A stretch of DNA of 6,981 nucleotides from DRGV01 sp018903055 [NCBI: bacterium] (GTDB lineage: Bacteria; UBP18; UBA7526). Shown piece by piece: positions 1,380 through 6,981 of this stretch. Location of the stretch: assembly GCA_018903055.1 (NCBI GenBank), contig JAHIPW010000085.1, forward strand, positions 1-6,981, written 5' to 3'. Under the pieces are notes generated by a model. It was not told the origin of the DNA. It saw only the letters and a program-made list of their open reading frames with translations, and searched no databases. How positions within the stretch are numbered: position 1 is the stretch's first letter; every line of letters begins with the position of its first letter. The translations under genes and the position numbers were made by a program.

Positions 1380-1387
1380 AAGTAACC

Positions 1388-1486
1388 AGATATCAGTTTT
1401 CAGATATCTGATTTCAGATTGCTGATGTAATCAGCAATAACTTACTACAAAACAAACTGATATCTGACTTCTGACATCTGATATCT
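1388..1486. repeat. Heptamer-period imperfect inverted repeat filling the gap before the small biotin carrier
   Basis: The gap is built from 7-base words. On the left, C recurs every 7 bases at 1387, 1394, 1401, 1408, 1415 and 1422 (agatatc, agttttc, agatatc, tgatttc, agattgc). On the right there are four units, ctgatat, ctgactt, ctgacat and ctgatat (1457-1484). The halves are complementary: agatatcag (1388-1396) matches ctgatatct (1478-1486) perfectly, the interior only imperfectly. A tighter hairpin lies in the middle (1418-1438). No T-tract follows, so it is not a classical terminator. It would be transcribed as a long imperfect stem between two cotranscribed genes. Confidence 0.75.
1418..1438. 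other. Perfect 9-bp inverted repeat with 3-nt spacer (hairpin or possible operator)
   Basis: Arms attgctgat (1418-1426) and atcagcaat (1430-1438) are exact reverse complements around a gta spacer. The size and symmetry resemble a dimeric regulator's operator, but the site is embedded in the larger 7-base-period inverted repeat and may simply be its apex. No promoter elements are recognisable beside it, and no T-run follows that would make it a terminator. Confidence 0.4.
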
Positions 1487-1502
1487 CCGAGTGAAGGGAG
1501 GG
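1487..1502 (+). promoter_or_regulatory. Ribosome binding site of the small biotin carrier, inside a shared leader motif
   Basis: ccgagtgaagggagg (1487-1501) ends in a strong GGGAGG Shine-Dalgarno core four bases before the ATG at 1506. The same 15-base motif, with 13 of 15 identities, lies directly before the biotin carboxylase start (1940-1954). This supports both starts and suggests a repeated sequence doubling as a ribosome binding site. Confidence 0.6.
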
Positions 1503-1505
1503 TGA

Positions 1506-1772
1506 ATGGCGAGTTTTCCTATTCCCAGGGTACCCATTATTACTCCCCACCAGATTATTATTATTGCCCCCATTACGGGAATAATAATAGACATTAAAAA
1601 GAGGGTAGGCAATAGAGTAAAAGCCGGGGATACACTCCTTATCCTGGAGGCTATGAAGATGGAGAATGAGATTGTAACTCCAGGCCCAGGGGTGGTAAAA
1701 GAGATAAAGATTAAGAAGGGCCAGAGAGTCAAGGCTGGTCTTCCTTTAGCAGTCATCACCCCTTCAAAGTAG
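1506..1772 (+). CDS. Minimal biotin carboxyl carrier protein (88 aa, biotinyl domain only)
   Basis: Carries biotin that shuttles CO2 between a biotin carboxylase and a carboxyltransferase. The motif EAMKMENEI places the biotinylated Lys at residue 51, about 37 residues from the C-terminus as in other biotinyl domains. The second half of the hairpin-like fold is visible as GVVKEIKIKKGQRVKAGLPLAVI (residues 62-84, split here for length: GVVKEIKIKK then GQRVKAGLPLAVI). Only about 17 residues precede the domain, so there is no long Ala/Pro linker as in typical MmdC or AccB. The N-terminal half is strikingly Ile-rich (IIIIAPITGIIIDI). The start is fixed by a GGGAGG site and the lack of other upstream in-frame starts. 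It lies 126 bp after the carboxyltransferase gene, the usual place for an MmdC-type partner, yet the cluster holds a second carrier further on. Carrier function is clear; which complex it serves is inferred. Confidence 0.9.
   Translation: MASFPIPRVPIITPHQIIIIAPITGIIIDIKKRVGNRVKAGDTLLILEAMKMENEIVTPGPGVVKEIKIKKGQRVKAGLPLAVITPSK
1557..1588 (+). other. Hairpin in the early coding region of the small biotin carrier
   Basis: attattatt (1557-1565) and aataataat (1580-1588) are exact reverse complements; three further C-G pairs can form in the 14-base loop with one bulged G. It lies about 50-80 bases inside the gene, in an ATT triplet run encoding Ile residues. It may be only a by-product of the Ile-rich coding sequence. 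Confidence 0.35.
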
Positions 1773-1783
1773 GAAAGAAGAAG

Positions 1784-1940
1784 AGTACAAAAGTAAGAAA
1801 GTGAGCCCCGAAGGACAAGCCTACGGGACAGGCAGGTGAGAAAGTGGGAAAGTGAGATAGTAGGTTATCAGTTTTTACTTTTTACTTTTTCATTTTTACT
1901 TGTTACTTGTTTCCGTCGTAGACGGATTACTTGTTATTTC
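1784..1940. repeat. Compound octamer/heptamer word array in the gap before the biotin carboxylase gene
   Basis: Purine-rich octamers open the gap: agtacaaa, agtaagaa, agtgagcc (1784-1807). A GC-rich insert of 27 bases follows, then ggtgagaa, agtgggaa, agtgagat, agtaggtt (1835-1866). The second part switches to pyrimidine-rich heptamers: tttttac, tttttac, tttttca, tttttac, ttgttac, ttgtttc (1872-1913). After a 13-base palindrome come ttacttg and ttatttc (1927-1940). The AGT-rich left half is roughly complementary to the ACT-rich right half, so the transcript could fold across the gap. Translated artificially this array gives a fake hydrophobic leader for the next gene. Confidence 0.75.
1913..1925. 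other. 13-base palindrome ccgtc-gta-gacgg
   Basis: Perfect 5-bp arms (1913-1917 and 1921-1925) around gta. It interrupts a run of acttgtt heptamers: two copies lie just upstream and a third just downstream, as if the palindrome had been inserted into the array. The gta spacer is the same as in the 1418-1438 inverted repeat. It lies about 34 bases before the biotin carboxylase start. Function unknown. Confidence 0.45.
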
Positions 1941-1958
1941 CGAGCGAAGCGAGGAGAG

Positions 1959-3467
1959 ATGTTTAAGAAGATACTCATTGCCAATAGAGGAGAGATTGCT
2001 GTCCGGATCATTCGCGCCTGCCGGGAACTGGGCATCCAGACCGTGGCTGTCTATTCCTCAGTCGATAGAGCGAGCCTCTACGTCAAGCTGGCGCATGAGG
2101 CCTATTTATTAGGAGGACCCCAGCCCAAGGAAAGCTACCTCAATATGGAAAAGATTATCGAGATTGCCAAGTCGAGTGGTGCCCAGGCCATTCATCCGGG
2201 ATATGGCTTCTTGGCAGAAAATCCCAGGTTTGTCAAGTTATGTGAGAAGAACAGAATAAAGTTTATCGGCCCGGACTCCCTCACCATGGAGATGGTGGGT
2301 AATAAGCTTTTGGCCCGAAGAATTGTGGAGGAAGCCGGGGTTCCCGTAATACCCGGTTCAAAGGAACCAATAAAGAATAATAAAGAAGCCCGGGATTTAG
2401 CCCGCAGATTAGGGCTTCCGGTAATAATCAAGGCGGTCTATGGTGGAGGAGGAAGAGGACTACGTCGGGTGAATAGATTAAAAGAACTCTCTTTTCTCTT
2501 AAAGGTGGCAAGATTAGAAGCTCGGGTTTCCTTTGACGATCCTTCTCTCTATATAGAGAAGTATATCAGGAATCCCAAGCACATCGAGGTCCAGATATTA
2601 GCCGATGAACGGGGAAGGATGGTCCATTTAGGAGAGAGGGACTGTACCATACAGAGAAGGTATCAGAAGTTATTGGAAGAGACACCCTCTCCCGTAGTCG
2701 ATGAAGGTTTAAGGAATAAATTGGGAGAGGCAGCAATAAAAGCTGCCCGGGCCGTAGGATACACCAATGCGGGGACGGTAGAGTTCATTCTGGATGAAAG
2801 GAAGAACTTCTATTTCATTGAGATAAATGCTCGTATCCAGGTAGAGCATTCAGTAACTGAGCGAGTAACGGGCATCGATCTGGTTAAGACCCAGATAAGA
2901 TTAGCTGATGGTGAGAAATTGCATCTCAAACAGAAAGATGTTTCTATAGTTGGATGTGCTATGGAGTGTCGAATTAATGTCGAAGACCCCCTGAATGACT
3001 TTGCCCCTTCCCCGGGAACGATCGGAAACCTGAGATTTCCGGGAGGACTGGGAGTGAGGGTGGACAGCTCTATCTATTCCGGATATACTATTCCTCTATA
3101 CTATGATACCCTAATCGCTAAGCTTACTGTCTGGGGGAAGGATAGGAAAGAGGTGATAGGAAGGATGGGGGCCGCTTTGAATGAATTCATCATCGAAGGA
3201 GTGAAGACCACCATCCCCCTGCACAAGGCTATCTTATGTGAAAAGGACTTTCAGAGGGGAAGGATAAGCCTCTCCTTTATTGAGAGGCATAAATTACTTA
3301 AAAGATTAAAGGCGAGTAGTCAAACCTCAGAGAAGATTGCAGTCATTACTGGTTGTCTTCTTGCCTATCAGGAAAGGAAGAAGACTCCACTAAAGAAGAA
3401 GAGAGAAAATCTCTGGAAAAGAGGATTTACCGAAAGCAAGTGGCAAACGAGGTTAAGGAAGATATGA
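1959..3467 (+). CDS. accC: Biotin carboxylase (AccC/PccA-type ATP-grasp subunit), 502 aa
   Basis: Uses ATP and bicarbonate to carboxylate biotin on its carrier protein. The order is N-terminal domain ILIANRGEIAVRIIRA (5-20) and HPGYGFLAEN, ATP-grasp domain with K158 and the glycine loop GGGGRG, then ERDC, K237, E275, E288, N290, R292, Q294 and E296, and the C-terminal domain with SPGTIGNLRFPGG and YYDTLIAKL. All residues I can match to E. coli catalysis and ATP binding are kept except Tyr235 for the usual His (RRYQK instead of RRHQK); the near-invariant EHPVTE reads EHSVTE. The protein exceeds a bare AccC (~450 aa) by about 50 residues, a Lys/Arg-rich tail such as precedes the carrier part in fused acyl-CoA carboxylase alpha chains. 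Start chosen at ATG 1959 (MFKKILIANRG) after GAGG/GGAG; an open frame reaches back to GTG 1836 but only translates repeats. The next gene overlaps by 4 bases. Confidence 0.95.
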   Translation: MFKKILIANRGEIAVRIIRACRELGIQTVAVYSSVDRASLYVKLAHEAYLLGGPQPKESYLNMEKIIEIAKSSGAQAIHPGYGFLAENPRFVKLCEKNRIKFIGPDSLTMEMVGNKLLARRIVEEAGVPVIPGSKEPIKNNKEARDLARRLGLPVIIKAVYGGGGRGLRRVNRLKELSFLLKVARLEARVSFDDPSLYIEKYIRNPKHIEVQILADERGRMVHLGERDCTIQRRYQKLLEETPSPVVDEGLRNKLGEAAIKAARAVGYTNAGTVEFILDERKNFYFIEINARIQVEHSVTERVTGIDLVKTQIRLADGEKLHLKQKDVSIVGCAMECRINVEDPLNDFAPSPGTIGNLRFPGGLGVRVDSSIYSGYTIPLYYDTLIAKLTVWGKDRKEVIGRMGAALNEFIIEGVKTTIPLHKAILCEKDFQRGRISLSFIERHKLLKRLKASSQTSEKIAVITGCLLAYQERKKTPLKKKRENLWKRGFTESKWQTRLRKI

Positions 3468-3946
3468 AATTCCGGGTTGTTATTGGCAGTAGTCACTATC
3501 AGGTAGAGGTAAATGACCCCGGAATAGTTATTGTGAACGGCCGACCATATCATGTCGACTTGGACCAAGACTCTCTTCTGGTCAATAAACGCTCCTATGA
3601 GATCTCCTCTTTACAAGAGGAGAACGGTCTTCCTACCCTAATCTCTGTCAATCAGGAGACTTATCGTTTAGAAATAGAGGAGGCGGAGAAGGCCGCTCCC
3701 CGGCGAAAGATAGGAAGATTAAAAGAGAAAGAGGAAGGAGCCATTACCTCCCCCATGAGCGGACAGATAATAAGCGTCGAGGCTAATGAGGGAGATCAGG
3801 TAGGGAAGGACGAGGTCATTCTCATCCTGGAGGCCATGAAGATGGAGAGCGAGGTCTTCAGTCCCAAAGAGGGAAGAATAAAGGAGATTCGGGTAGCCAA
3901 AGGAGATATGGTAAATACTGGAGATGTTCTGGCGGTTATAGAATGA
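3464..3946 (+). CDS. Biotin carboxyl carrier protein with N-terminal BT-like domain (160 aa)
   Basis: Second biotin carrier of the cluster. Residues 1-75 or so (MKFRVVIGSSHYQVEV onward) look like a short beta-rich domain similar to the region joining biotin carboxylase and carrier in fused propionyl-CoA carboxylase alpha chains; this is a resemblance in pattern only. A charged linker (EKAAPRRKIGRLKEKEE) follows, then a C-terminal biotinyl domain with ITSPMSGQI and EAMKMESEV, biotin Lys126, 35 residues from the end. The ATG at 3464 overlaps the biotin carboxylase stop as ATGA, so translation is probably coupled, with AAGGAAG just upstream. A TTG at 3353 in the same frame would add 37 charged residues from inside accC and is rejected. 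The tight coupling makes this the natural partner of the biotin carboxylase. The role of the other carrier is then open. Confidence 0.92.
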   Translation: MKFRVVIGSSHYQVEVNDPGIVIVNGRPYHVDLDQDSLLVNKRSYEISSLQEENGLPTLISVNQETYRLEIEEAEKAAPRRKIGRLKEKEEGAITSPMSGQIISVEANEGDQVGKDEVILILEAMKMESEVFSPKEGRIKEIRVAKGDMVNTGDVLAVIE

Positions 3947-4020
3947 TGCTACAGGCTACATGCCACCGGCCACAGGCTTCAAGAAGCTTGCAGCCTGCGG
4001 CTTGCAGCTTGAAGCAAGTC
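3944..4020. repeat. Eleven-unit imperfect heptamer array starting at the carrier stop codon
   Basis: The stretch divides without remainder into 7-base words: tgatgct, acaggct, acatgcc, accggcc, acaggct, tcaagaa, gcttgca, gcctgcg, gcttgca, gcttgaa, gcaagtc. The first word contains the TGA stop of the carrier gene. Words 2-5 belong to one family (acaggct) and 7-10 to another (gcttgca). gcttcaag (3976-3983) and cttgaagc (4008-4015) are exact reverse complements, so the second part can form a stem with a 24-base loop that itself pairs partly. It ends 24 bases before the CoA-transferase start. Confidence 0.8.
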
Positions 4021-4032
4021 CGTCTGTATTTC

Positions 4033-4040
4033 AGGGGGAG
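4033..4040 (+). promoter_or_regulatory. Ribosome binding site that fixes the CoA-transferase start
   Basis: agggggag lies directly before the GTG at 4044. It supports GTG as the start, because the ATG at 3960 lies inside the heptamer array and has no comparable site. Confidence 0.6.
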
Positions 4041-4043
4041 AGA

Positions 4044-5231
4044 GTGAAGAAGCCATTAAAAAGAATTAGGGTCTTAGACTTTACCCGGGTATTGGCTGGG
4101 CCATACTGCGCTATGATGCTCTGTGACATGGGAGCAGAGGTGATAAAGGTTGAAAGGCCCGGAACTGGTGACGATGCCCGCTTCTTCGGCCCCTTCATCA
4201 AAGGAGAAAGCGGTTACTATATGAGCCTCAACCGGGGAAAGAAGTCCATCGCTTTAAACCTGAAGCACAAAAAAGGAAAAGAGATTGTAAAAAAATTAAT
4301 AAAGAAGGTAGATATCGTCTTGGAGAACTTTCGTCCGGGAACCATGGAGAAGTTGGGCTTTGGCTATCAAGATATAAAGAAAATAAACCCCAAGATAATC
4401 TATGCCTCAACCTCTGGCTATGGCCAGACCGGGCCCATATCCCGGATGGCGGGATATGACATCGTTGCCCAGGCAGTGGGCGGGATAATGTCCATTACTG
4501 GCCCTCCCAATGGCCTACCAACAAGGGTGGGGACCTCCATCGCTGATATCCTGGCCGGGATGTTCACCGCCTATGGAGTGATGATCGCCTTATATAACCG
4601 AGGTAAGACGGGAAAGGGTGCCCAAATCGATGTGGCCATGGTTGACTCTGTGGCTAGTGTTTTGGAGAATGCCATCATAAGATACCTTGCTACGGGAAAA
4701 TCACCAAAGCCCATCGGCTCGCGACATCCCTCCCTGGCGCCCTTTGACATGTTTAAGGCCAAGGATGGCTATATGGTAATCGCCATCGGTAATGAGAAAC
4801 TATGGCATAGCTTCTGCCAGGCGATAGGAAGGGATGACCTCCTGAAAGATCCCAGGTTTATAAATAATAAGAAGAGACTAAAGAATGAGAGAATCCTCAA
4901 ATCTCTGATTGAGCGATGGACGAGGAAGAAGACGGTCAAGAAACTTTTGGTCGTCTTCAATGAATTGGGCATTCCCTGTGGCCCAGTAAATAGTATGGAG
5001 AGAATGGTTCGCCATCCCCAGATCCTATTTCGTAATATGATCCAGGAAATTAAACATCCTGTAGCAGGAAAGATAAAGATGGCGGGAATTCCACTAAAGA
5101 TGGCTGGATTCTCGGATAAAATTCCTGGTCGATCACCGTTACTGGGAGAGCATACGGAGGAGATCCTCAAAAAATATCTCAGGTATGGCCCGAAGAGAAT
5201 TAAAGCATTAAAGAACGAGGGCGTGATTTAG
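4044..5231 (+). CDS. CaiB/BaiF (class III) CoA-transferase family protein, 395 aa
   Basis: Class III enzymes move CoA between an acyl-CoA and a free acid through a mixed anhydride on an active-site Asp. The sequence runs in family order: RVLDFTRVLAGPYC and LCDMGAEVIKVERPG (N-terminus, CoA-binding region), GYYMSLNRGKKSIALNL, DIVLENFRPGTMEKLG, IYASTSGYGQTGP, GYDIVAQAVGG with the probable catalytic Asp139, TRVGTSIADILAGMFTAYG, GAQIDVAMVDS, then a C-terminal part with GIPCGPVNSMERMVRHPQ. Length matches the family (about 380-430). GTG is chosen as start because its MKKPLKRIRVLDF gives the normal family N-terminus; the 28 residues read from ATG 3960 come from the repeat array. The family also includes racemases such as alpha-methylacyl-CoA racemase, so substrate and even reaction are uncertain. 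It lies 97 bp after the biotin carrier and 133 bp before the oxidoreductase, suggesting handling of an acid or acyl-CoA shared by the cluster. Confidence 0.92.
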   Translation: MKKPLKRIRVLDFTRVLAGPYCAMMLCDMGAEVIKVERPGTGDDARFFGPFIKGESGYYMSLNRGKKSIALNLKHKKGKEIVKKLIKKVDIVLENFRPGTMEKLGFGYQDIKKINPKIIYASTSGYGQTGPISRMAGYDIVAQAVGGIMSITGPPNGLPTRVGTSIADILAGMFTAYGVMIALYNRGKTGKGAQIDVAMVDSVASVLENAIIRYLATGKSPKPIGSRHPSLAPFDMFKAKDGYMVIAIGNEKLWHSFCQAIGRDDLLKDPRFINNKKRLKNERILKSLIERWTRKKTVKKLLVVFNELGIPCGPVNSMERMVRHPQILFRNMIQEIKHPVAGKIKMAGIPLKMAGFSDKIPGRSPLLGEHTEEILKKYLRYGPKRIKALKNEGVI

Positions 5232-5255
5232 GCACAGACGCCAAGAATGTTGAAA

Positions 5256-5321
5256 CGGAGAAAGGGGGAAACGGAGACACGGAGAAAATCTCCGATTCAC
5301 CGATTCGCCGATTCACCCTTT
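5256..5321. repeat. Octamer-period array in two opposing halves around a hairpin
   Basis: Left half, purine-rich octamers: cggagaaa, gggggaaa, cggagaca, cggagaaa (5256-5287). Right half: ctccgatt, caccgatt, cgccgatt, then a decayed caccctt (5290-5320). At the junction cggaga (5280-5285) and tctccg (5289-5294) form a perfect 6-bp hairpin with an aaa loop. A T6 run occurs only at 5324-5329, 30 bases past the stem, so it does not look like an intrinsic terminator. The rest of the gap up to the start at 5365 shows nothing recognisable besides a GAGAGG site at 5350-5355. Confidence 0.75.
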
Positions 5322-5364
5322 CATTTTTTCTGTGGCAATCTTGCGCATCGAGAGGTTTAGAAAG

Positions 5365-6981
5365 ATGAGTTACGGATACCAGGGAAAGATACTGGAAGTC
5401 GATCTAACCACTCAGAAGATATCCCAAAGAAAGGTAAAGGAAGAGGATGTTAAGAAGTACTTCATGGGAAGCGGCCTGGCGGCTAAGATATTATCTGAAG
5501 AGGCAGATCTAAGCCTCGATCCCTTTGACCCCGCTAATCCCTTGATCTTTATGGCCGGCCTCTTGACCGGGACCATGGTTCCTACGGCCTGTAAGTTAAG
5601 TGTCTGTAGCAAGAGCCCTCTTACCGGGATATGGAATGAGGCCACCGTGGGGGGTCACTGGCCGGCCCACTTCAAATTCACGGGATATGATGGGATAATC
5701 ATCAGAGGAAAATCAGATAAACCGGTCTATCTCTGGATTAATGATGCGAAATGCGAAATGCGAAATGCGGAAAGTGTTTGGGGAAGGGATACTTTCGAGA
5801 CCAGTGAGCTGTTGAAGAAGGAGACGGATGATAAGGCGCTTGTAGCGGCAATCGGCCAGGCAGGAGAAAACCTGTCCAGAATGGCCAGCATTGTCTTTGA
5901 TGGAATGAATGCTCGAATCGCTGCCCGGGGTGGACCGGGAGCGGTAATGGGTTCTAAAAATTTAAAGGCCATCGTAGTAAAAGGAAATAAAAGACCAGAG
6001 ATTAAGGATTGGGAAGGCTTAAGGGAACTATTGAAGAAGGAGATCCCAATAATAAAGGAGAAGGCAAAAGGGTTGAGCGAATTTGGCACTGCTGGAGGGG
6101 CTGTAGCAGTAGAGGCCTTCGCCGATCTCCCCATTAAGAACTGGCAACTCGGCTCCTGGGAAGAGGGGATTAAGAAGATATCCGGACAGAGGATGAGGGA
6201 GAGAATATGGGTGAGACACTATCACTGCTATTCCTGTCCTATAGGTTGTGCCAAGATTGTCAAAGGCAATGGAAAGTATGGGAAGTTCTATGGCCACTAT
6301 CCGGAGTATGAAACGGTGGGAATGCTGGGAGCAAACTGTTTGAATGATGATCTGGAACTCCTGGCCTATGTAAACGAGTTGTGTAATAAATTTGGACTGG
6401 ATACCATTTCCACTGGTTCGACTATTGCCTTTGCCATGGAGTGCTATGAGAAAGGGAAGATTACAAAAGAGGATACTGGTGGTTTAGAGATAAAGTGGGG
6501 AGATTCTAAGGCCATGATTACTTTAATAAATCAGATTGCTAAAAGAGAAGGATTTGTAGGAGAATATCTTGCAGATGGACCGGTTGAGGCAGCAAAAAAG
6601 ATTGGCAAAGGCACAATGGAATTTGTTTCCCAGACAAAGGGACTTGACTATCCGGCTCACGATCCAAGGGGACATTTCTCCATGGCCCTCTCCTATGCTA
6701 CGAGTGTAAGGGGGGCCTGCCACTTAGAGGGCCTAACTTATTTTCTCGATAGAGGATTGAAGATAGAGGACCTGGGATATACAGAACCACCAGACCAGTT
6801 TCAGGAGGATGGCAAGCCGCAGATCACTTATAACTTGCAGAACTTCTTAAGTGTCTATAACCCCTTGGGGATCTGTAAGTTTTTGATGGGAAGGGCGGAG
6901 CCCTCCCAGATTGCCAGGTGGGTCAATAGGGTCACTGGTTTTGAGATGGACATGAAAGAACTCTTAAAAATCGGAGAGAGG
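5365..6981 (+). CDS. aor: Aldehyde:ferredoxin oxidoreductase (tungsten-pterin AOR family), 3' partial
   Basis: Interconverts aldehydes and carboxylic acids with ferredoxin as electron partner; cytoplasmic, oxygen-sensitive, using a tungsten bis-pterin cofactor and one [4Fe-4S] cluster. The frame is open for 539 codons to the window edge; the family is about 600-640 aa, so 60-100 residues are missing. Visible: N-terminal domain GYQGKILEVDLTTQKIS, FMGSGLAAKIL, SKSPLTGIWNEATVGG, FTGYDGIIIRG and ARGGPGAVMGSKNLKAI; cluster Cys288, 291 and 295 (CYSCPIGC, CX2CX3C) and probable fourth ligand Cys504 in NPLGICKF; YPEYETVGMLG; FGLDTISTG; DPRGHFSMALSYATS; RGACHLEG with His453. The first three Cys fall at the same numbers I recall for the Pyrococcus furiosus enzyme. 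ATG 5365 has GAGAGG at 5350-5355 and gives the normal family N-terminus. A perfect 7-bp tandem repeat lies in the gene at codons 127-135. Other family members (GOR, BamB-like) are less likely but not excluded. Confidence 0.93.
   Translation, partial: MSYGYQGKILEVDLTTQKISQRKVKEEDVKKYFMGSGLAAKILSEEADLSLDPFDPANPLIFMAGLLTGTMVPTACKLSVCSKSPLTGIWNEATVGGHWPAHFKFTGYDGIIIRGKSDKPVYLWINDAKCEMRNAESVWGRDTFETSELLKKETDDKALVAAIGQAGENLSRMASIVFDGMNARIAARGGPGAVMGSKNLKAIVVKGNKRPEIKDWEGLRELLKKEIPIIKEKAKGLSEFGTAGGAVAVEAFADLPIKNWQLGSWEEGIKKISGQRMRERIWVRHYHCYSCPIGCAKIVKGNGKYGKFYGHYPEYETVGMLGANCLNDDLELLAYVNELCNKFGLDTISTGSTIAFAMECYEKGKITKEDTGGLEIKWGDSKAMITLINQIAKREGFVGEYLADGPVEAAKKIGKGTMEFVSQTKGLDYPAHDPRGHFSMALSYATSVRGACHLEGLTYFLDRGLKIEDLGYTEPPDQFQEDGKPQITYNLQNFLSVYNPLGICKFLMGRAEPSQIARWVNRVTGFEMDMKELLKIGER
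5744..5769 (+). repeat. Perfect heptamer tandem repeat (atgcgaa, 3.7 copies) inside the oxidoreductase gene
   Basis: Three exact copies of atgcgaa (5744-5764) plus atgcg (5765-5769). Because 7 is not a multiple of 3, the copies are read in three frames and give NDAKCEMRNAES. The encoded segment fits the family without obvious insertion, in a variable surface stretch before VWGRDTFE. Gain or loss of one copy would shift the frame and truncate the enzyme early. Confidence 0.85.

Follow-up and report, generated by a model that had tools for sequence, protein, structure and literature searches.

Short tandemly repeated repetitive sequences (STRRs) of filamentous cyanobacteria are 7-bp spacer repeats able to form hairpins, described between hupS and hupL and given there as without known function (PMC2670836). 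For those between hupS and hupL an RNA-level role has been proposed. Heptamer repeats have been recorded for decades in cyanobacteria, Xanthomonas, Beggiatoaceae and other bacteria without an agreed origin. Here, we analyzed such words in a stretch of 6981 bases (the window), which is one whole contig (C71) of a 1.09-Mb metagenome-assembled genome (MAG) in 191 contigs. The gaps between its genes probably hold copies, devoid of an open reading frame (ORF), of a mobile hairpin element whose relatives carry a PF05635 gene between their arms.

Intervening sequences (IVSs) of rRNA genes have complementary borders that form a stem-loop, replace a small hairpin loop and can carry an ORF for the S23 or intervening-sequence protein (IVP; PMC4990558), a PF05635 protein to which the papers compared here assign no known function. 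In two Xanthomonas genomes GGGAATC heptamers occupy 186 and 183 sites, of which 89 % and 93 % are intergenic, and inverted pairs occur 70 and 75 times; these and the Nostoc GGGGA(C/T)T repeats are discussed mainly as G-quadruplex-forming, without mention of IVP in the passages compared (PMC4692102). The TAACTGA heptamers of Beggiatoaceae are intergenic and lie near start codons; at the same gene pair the spacer of some relatives is shorter and free of repeats, and transfer by a mobile element was considered (PMC4679880).

The window resembles STRRs in the tandem degenerate 7-bp spacer words of gaps 1-3 (8-bp units make up gap 4 and part of gap 2), and IVSs in the complementary stem-loop ends of its gaps and of ORF-bearing copies. 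It differs from STRRs in its host, a candidate phylum (with a UBP18-labelled relative) and not a filamentous cyanobacterium, and in the presence of octamers and decamers, many word families per genome and gain and loss at orthologous sites. Unlike IVSs, the window hairpins lie between protein genes and not in 16S or 23S rRNA genes, they enclose no IVP ORF, their arms are periodic words, and most copies of the element are ORF-less. The Beggiatoaceae case differs in having one word in direct repeats, proposed as translational-regulator sites (PMC4679880). An IVS in the 23S gene of the genome itself was considered and rejected, as this gene gave a single unbroken match of 3017 bases.

Periodic Words Form the Arms of One Hairpin in Each Gap

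Autocorrelation in the gaps was judged against 300 dinucleotide shuffles per region. Lag 7 stood out in gap 1 (1380-1505; z 6.7, with z 4.5 at lag 14) and gap 3 (3947-4043; z 5.5, with 4.0 at lag 14), both lags 7 and 8 in gap 2 (1773-1960; z 4.6 and 5.0), and lag 8 in gap 4 (5232-5364; z 6.9, with 5.0 at lag 16). Tandem Repeats Finder also reported arrays in all four. In the six window genes the top z at lags 7 and 8 was 1.7, with values up to 3.5 at other lags (lag 9, last gene). A fifth junction, between the biotin carboxylase and the second biotinyl carrier genes (3464-3467), is an overlap, hence the cluster has four real gaps. For all four of them the analysis bore out an earlier sequence-only reading of this DNA, which had described period-7 or period-8 words in every gap.

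The same reading had called the words unrelated, but the two within one gap are imperfect reverse complements. Upon folding, each gap gave a single long, imperfect hairpin whose numerous mismatches are evenly spaced, the two arrays being its two arms (fold z for gaps 1-4: -3.33, -3.83, -3.78, and -3.70; matched by none of 200 shuffles each). All features given below are on the forward strand; the 5' arms were supported by repeat finding, periodicity and folding, the 3' arms by repeat finding and folding (that of gap 3 by folding). In gap 1, CAGATAT/CAGATTT-type heptamers (1387-1426) pair with CTGATAT/CTGACTT-type heptamers (1457-1486). In gap 2, the 5' arm consists of GTGAGAAA/GTGGGAAA-type octamers (1836-1863) and the 3' arm of TTTTTAC-type heptamers (1873-1904); a GC-rich palindrome (about 1805-1835; family 1 of the dispersed-family analysis) lies beside and within the octamers, and was found again next to GTGAGAAA octamers at other loci. 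Gap 3 has GGCTACA-type heptamers (3947-3979) followed by GCTTGCA/GCCTGCG-type heptamers (3984-4016). In gap 4, GGAGAAAC-type octamers (5251-5285) face CACCGATT-type octamers (5289-5323) with regular mismatches, and what may be left of an outer hairpin (GCACAGACGCC..., 5232-5247) would have its partner at about 5328-5341, as judged from the fold and a by-eye comparison of orthologs.

Contrary to what had been stated, arrays do not span the whole distance from stop codon to ribosome site: gap 2 also contains the GC-rich palindrome, and gaps 1 and 2 end in non-periodic tails (CCGAGTGAAGGGAGG / CCGAGCGAAGCGAGG) that carry the ribosome site. From their sequence, the tail of gap 1 (CCGAGTGAAGGGAGGGTGA, 1487-1505) has the ribosome site of the biotinyl carrier gene and that of gap 2 (CCGAGCGAAGCGAGGAGAG, 1940-1958) likewise bears one. 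Tails of the CCGAGCGAAGCGAGG type ahead of start codons (window 1487-1505 and 1940-1958) recur across the family, bearing the ribosome site.

Hairpins Appear, Disappear and Change at the Same Junctions

The nearest named relatives are two MAGs, one labelled UBP18, both with 92 % identity in the first (carboxyltransferase) gene. Family genomes are numbered G000 (own) to G005, and the related MAGs are called G1-G5. Besides the window, 60 of the 191 own contigs were sampled (338,737 bases including the window, 43,393 of them N), and their genes were predicted with a home-made hexamer model. Orthologous spacers were located through both flanking proteins, with extrapolated boundaries. At gap 1, G2 had 6 nt, while G3 and G4 had another heptamer family, closed by a near copy of the tail CCGAGTGAAGGGAGGGTGA. 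The ortholog of gap 2 was no longer than 11 nt in G2 and 5 nt in G4. At gap 4, G2 had 14 nt and both G3 and G4 a CACGGATT-type hairpin, with an extra hairpin of ~100 nt in G3 at the junction between the 5' and 3' words of the G4 hairpin (L160:15189 vs L163:7464).

Altogether, 34 distinct own array spacers entered 41 comparisons, which gave 16 empty orthologs (<40 nt), 24 different ones (7 with another array, 17 without an array at the threshold) and a single one with the same array; within genera the same array was seen in 3 of 15 comparisons. The expected word turnover between relatives was therefore found at orthologous spacers of the related MAGs. Alike hairpins also occur at unrelated loci, as a 116-nt hairpin was present at eight unrelated places of the sampled own contigs (89-94 % identity, some copies partial). 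Single linkage grouped the hairpins into twelve families, in which 68 copies have the prevailing orientation to the flanking genes and 12 the opposite one. This bias is indicative only, as the prevailing orientation by definition covers half of the copies or more and several hairpins are chained together in the largest family (24 to 5). By eye, the 116-nt hairpin (GTTGGTAGTTGGGTTAGGG..., e.g., L149:4398-4513) was seen at several places nested inside other array hairpins, with their arms on either side.

If replication slippage and template switching at random spacer palindromes made the arrays in place, no mobile element would be required. This would agree with the unit-wise build of the arrays, the imperfect arms and the many different words, but hardly with hairpins ~90 % identical at unrelated loci or with a complete additional hairpin lodged inside another one, between its arms, and we regard it as unlikely. 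The pairing of the arrays as arms was missed by the sequence-only reading, and this arrangement fits elements that come and go, not slippage alone.

Short dispersed palindromes with an orientation bias, one insertion being flanked by ATAATA (L268 vs L159), also recall palindromes of the repetitive extragenic palindrome/bacterial interspersed mosaic element (REP/BIME) type moved by an IS200-type (REP-associated tyrosine, RAYT) transposase, or miniature inverted-repeat transposable elements (MITEs) of an undetected transposon. We consider this very improbable: PF01797 had no hit in G000-G003, the same search being positive in 5 of 14 control genomes, the arms are tandem words and not fixed terminal repeats, and the words vary among copies. 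The insertion at L268 (vs L159:748), present in G4 and not in G3, is a GC-rich palindrome with ATAATA on both sides and belongs to another element type.

Arrays Are Enriched in Spacers and Their Words Are Largely Lineage-Specific

In 173 own spacers (31.5 kb) identity was 0.338, 0.305, 0.286, and 0.301 at lags 7, 8, 10, and 14, compared to 0.265, 0.255, 0.253, and 0.255 in own genes (N runs unmasked in both). With N masked, own spacers (33.3 kb) contained 44 lag-7 and 31 lag-8 arrays and genes (256 kb) 18 and 7, and five shuffles of the own spacers contained none. The respective counts were 27 and 23 in spacers of G3 (20.9 kb), 6 and 4 in G1 (3.6 kb), 1 and 1 in G2 (17.0 kb) and 1 and 1 in G4, of which only 3.1 kb were sampled. 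A peak at lags 7-8 confined to spacers, by which the sequence-only reading was to be checked, thus exists in the sampled part of the genome, and the enrichment over genes and shuffles supports a genome-wide spacer phenomenon. When N-free co-directional spacers of 60-350 nt were ranked by a symmetric DNA score, hairpins scoring at least 36 were found in 31 of 125 own, 32 of 102 G3, 5 of 15 G1, 1 of 17 G4, and 5 of 115 G2 spacers.

One exact word pattern (F1) occurred in all six family genomes and in 0 of 187 others (reversed control, 0/193), a second word (F5) in 5 of 6 family genomes and 0 of 139 others, and a third (F8) in G003 plus one outsider among 145 genomes. These words are thus largely lineage-specific, and the construction is the common part. 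Paired arms of similar kind outside IVP loci were seen by eye in spacers of Desulfohalobiaceae (L067), Desulfatitalea (L112) and Terriglobia (L095).

Related Hairpins of the Family Enclose a PF05635 Gene

In G5 an orthologous hairpin encloses, between its arms, an ORF for a PF05635/TIGR02436 protein (23S rRNA intervening-sequence/four-helix-bundle protein, IVP). PF05635 was present in 26 of 60 genomes, namely 6/6 of the family and 20/54 others, and in 0 of 14 control genomes. G000-G005 had 8, 8, 4, 10, 10, and 2 hits, five of the own eight being above the cut-off. The four hits of G2 are partial, broken or weak; this genome, without an intact full-length IVP hit, has few arrays in its sampled spacers.

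Six of the eight IVP hits in the sampled sequence were tested for arms, two weak fragments at G3 contig starts being omitted. In four of the six the ORF lies between complementary arms, each locus having its own word; the remaining two, both from G2, are degenerate or truncated by the contig end. At the gap costs used for plasmids these four loci scored 29, 48, 42, and 58, which was reached by 1, 0, 0, and 0 of 300 dinucleotide shuffles, and among 468 genes 18, 4, 11, and 1 scored as high (IVP gene counted where in the set). An arms-only hairpin (L161) corresponds to the joined arms of the G5 element, with agreement at 45 of 55 5' positions and at 71 of 83 positions of the 3' alignment. The window copies are probably arms-only derivatives of IVP-bearing hairpin elements.

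A small home-made IVP profile had no match in loci L034-L138 and L269. In the upstream flank of a G2 PF05635 remnant (L237) a GGTGAACGGTTAACGG array appears inside the upstream gene. One further genome (G013) has 19 PF05635 hits, many of them in divergent pairs of half length, spaced by a few hundred bases (e.g., C2:122174-122711, C3:162853-163181), perhaps palindromic gene copies.

Plasmids of Other Phyla Carry the Same Arrangement

When family IVPs were compared with 72,556 plasmids by tblastn, 48, 23, and 29 records were obtained, from which 21 loci were taken by rank and taxon, flanks not being considered in the choice. Complementary flanks were found in 19 of the 21, no more than 2 of 300 dinucleotide shuffles of each doing as well. 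Of these 19 loci, 11 had 7 as the better period on one side or both, 6 had 8, one had 9 and one had none (Bernardetia, Bacteroidota, a weak locus). A lag score of at least 9 was reached by 22/42 flanks at lag 7 and 13/42 at lag 8, compared to 8/840 and 9/840 shuffled flanks. On three plasmids used as control, 0 of 113 other genes reached the IVP score on the same stretch, the nearest being an IS701 transposase gene (34 vs 35). In 19 annotated loci the IVP ORF was co-directional with the downstream gene in 16 and opposed in 3.

By reading, 15 of the 21 loci have a plain arm-ORF-arm layout, among them those of the Cyanobacteriota Leptolyngbya, Nostoc, Brasilonema, Picosynechococcus, Calothrix, Euhalothece, Planktothrix, Gloeocapsa, Dolichospermum and Tolypothrix, and elsewhere those of Azospirillum (Pseudomonadota) and Chlorohelix (Chloroflexota). 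The Oscillatoria locus has 8-base arrays on either side in the same orientation, and the Nostoc commune HK-02 locus has no arms at the IVP ORF.

Empty sites were found on related plasmids. In Picosynechococcus the cas10-cmr3 junction holds arms plus ORF in PCC 7003 (NZ_CP016476) and 12 nt in plasmid pAQ6 of PCC 7002; in Nostoc UHCC 0302 plasmids 4 and 6 are empty and plasmid 5 of the same strain carries the element; and Trichormus variabilis and Nostoc NIES-3756 are empty compared to Nostoc MS1. Relative to T. variabilis, the MS1 insert comprises 479 nt between stop codon and ribosome site, with TACTAAG on both sides. Breakpoints of the PCC 7002/7003 and UHCC 0302 pairs were read by eye, as the automatic ones were wrong or rough. 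The presence or absence of arms plus ORF at the same plasmid junction also speaks against arrays made in place by slippage; together with the dispersed hairpins this makes slippage unlikely as the whole story, even if it may still explain the lengthening of arms.

Several plasmid IVP ORFs were observed inside defense operons, i.e., cas10/cmr3 (L295), cas6/cas4 (L297), helicase/DNA methylase (L309) and drmD/MmeI (L312). In the upstream flanks of L308, L297 and L310 complete array hairpins adjoin the IVP ORF, so elements can be compound. Two scans of viral contigs gave one relative each and no sign of a shared phage module.

Mismatches Give No Sign of RNA-Level Selection

The sequence-only reading had proposed that the arrays act as RNA folding or mRNA-processing spacers. 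Transcribed spacers could be selected for folding, mRNA stability or the ratio of operon products, as the gaps form stable RNA folds, the dispersed hairpin families show an orientation bias, and the sense strand folds slightly better than the antisense strand in 141 own co-directional spacers of 40-350 nt (p 1.1e-6) and better in 47 of 74 hairpin spacers. This advantage may stem from the G-rich 5' arms (of 74, 53 have more G than C, 14 have less and 7 are tied). The location of 151 of 156 array or hairpin spacers between co-directional genes tells little, as 650 of all 688 spacers are so placed. Selection for RNA pairing should favor G.U, but G.T and A.C mismatches were equally frequent in the 74 co-directional hairpin spacers (282 vs 278), and there is therefore no visible RNA selection; this suggests a DNA-level palindrome or its neutral remains. 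In plasmid arms A.C (57) even exceeded G.T (36), and orthologous spacers are empty or different. The proposed RNA role is thus not supported, and we hold it to be improbable.

A Mobile Hairpin Element as the Probable Source

Period-7/8 arms, presence and word changing at the same junctions, alike hairpins at unrelated loci, and PF05635 (IVP, Avd-like) ORFs between arms in the family and on plasmids make a mobile hairpin element the likely source of the window gaps. The IVP protein, or a relative acting in trans, would help such elements to move; cells would tolerate them in the stretch from a stop codon to the following ribosome site and within other hairpins, and the periodic arms would probably lengthen by unit-wise slippage in the hairpin.

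Several observations weigh against this interpretation. No known mobilizing enzyme was found, neither PF01797 nor PF00078 (RVT_1) having a hit in G000-G003 (53-93 % complete). A consistent target-site duplication, looked for by eye, was not found; candidates, likewise seen by eye only, are TACTAAG flanking the Nostoc MS1 insert and ATAATA at L268. In the minimum free energy fold of the G4 spacer, the site of the nested insertion falls next to the apical stem, at a base left unpaired, and outside the terminal loop. There is no IVP ORF within the window, its four words are tied to IVP elements through architecture, and only L161 vs L032/L166 links an arms-only to an ORF-bearing hairpin by sequence. 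With looser gap costs only one of the four intact family loci beats the shuffles. The contrast offered by G2 comes from a single genome, 82 % complete, in which the F1 word is still present five times. On plasmids, 2 of the 21 loci lack significant inverted flanks, the direct flank match exceeds the inverted one in 6 of 21, and the Pseudanabaena, Treponema and Gemmatirosa loci are compound, with a full hairpin upstream of the ORF and a further array downstream, so that the ORF is not simply in the loop.

Relation to IVSs, STRRs and Avd

On a wider scale, and more tentatively, IVP/Avd-like genes and the intergenic heptamer or octamer arrays of bacteria might form one class of hairpin mobile element with tandem-word arms and without its own transposase or reverse transcriptase, inserting between operon genes and into other hairpins. 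The rRNA IVSs would then be those members that came to lie in rRNA helices, and the STRRs arms-only remains. The architecture is common to window elements, IVSs and STRRs, and all three may have a single origin. IVP (four-helix-bundle) ORFs on Nostoc, Dolichospermum, Planktothrix and Euhalothece plasmids lie between words like those of STRRs, which supports the kinship that the sequence-only reading had suggested, and the cyanobacterial STRR heptamers probably belong to the hairpin-element class. Among the open-access matches listed, we recognized no paper that connects heptamer arrays with IVP genes. A PF05635-type protein of X. campestris, XCC0516, has been solved (2gsc).

A likeness also exists to Avd of diversity-generating retroelements, as 2 of 4 IVPs match bAvd PF22296 (one above the cut-off) and 3 of 4 match the Avd model NF033474 (all under its cut-off); the difference is that no reverse transcriptase (RVT_1) hit was found in G000-G003, just as the lack of a Y1 transposase (PF01797) hit in these genomes sets the element apart from REP/BIME systems. 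If the class is real, a bacterial repeat type known for decades gains an identity, the arms are the likely substrate of the protein and the protein the likely mover of the repeats, and the origin of the repeats and the function of the protein become testable together, with the empty plasmid sites as ready-made assay targets.

Gene Content of the Window

All window genes are on the forward strand. The carboxyltransferase (accD-like) gene upstream of gap 1 (24-1379; PF01039, E 1.5e-191) is followed by genes for a biotinyl carrier protein (1506-1772; PF00364), a biotin carboxylase (1959-3467; PF02786, PF00289, PF02785) and, overlapping the latter, a second biotinyl carrier (3464-3946; PF00364). 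A CoA-transferase family III gene (4044-5231; PF02515) precedes an aldehyde ferredoxin oxidoreductase gene (5365-6981; PF01314, PF02730), which continues past the window end. An ATGCGAA heptamer inside this last gene (3.7 copies, 5744-5769) was considered as an insertion and rejected, since the orthologs align gap-free.

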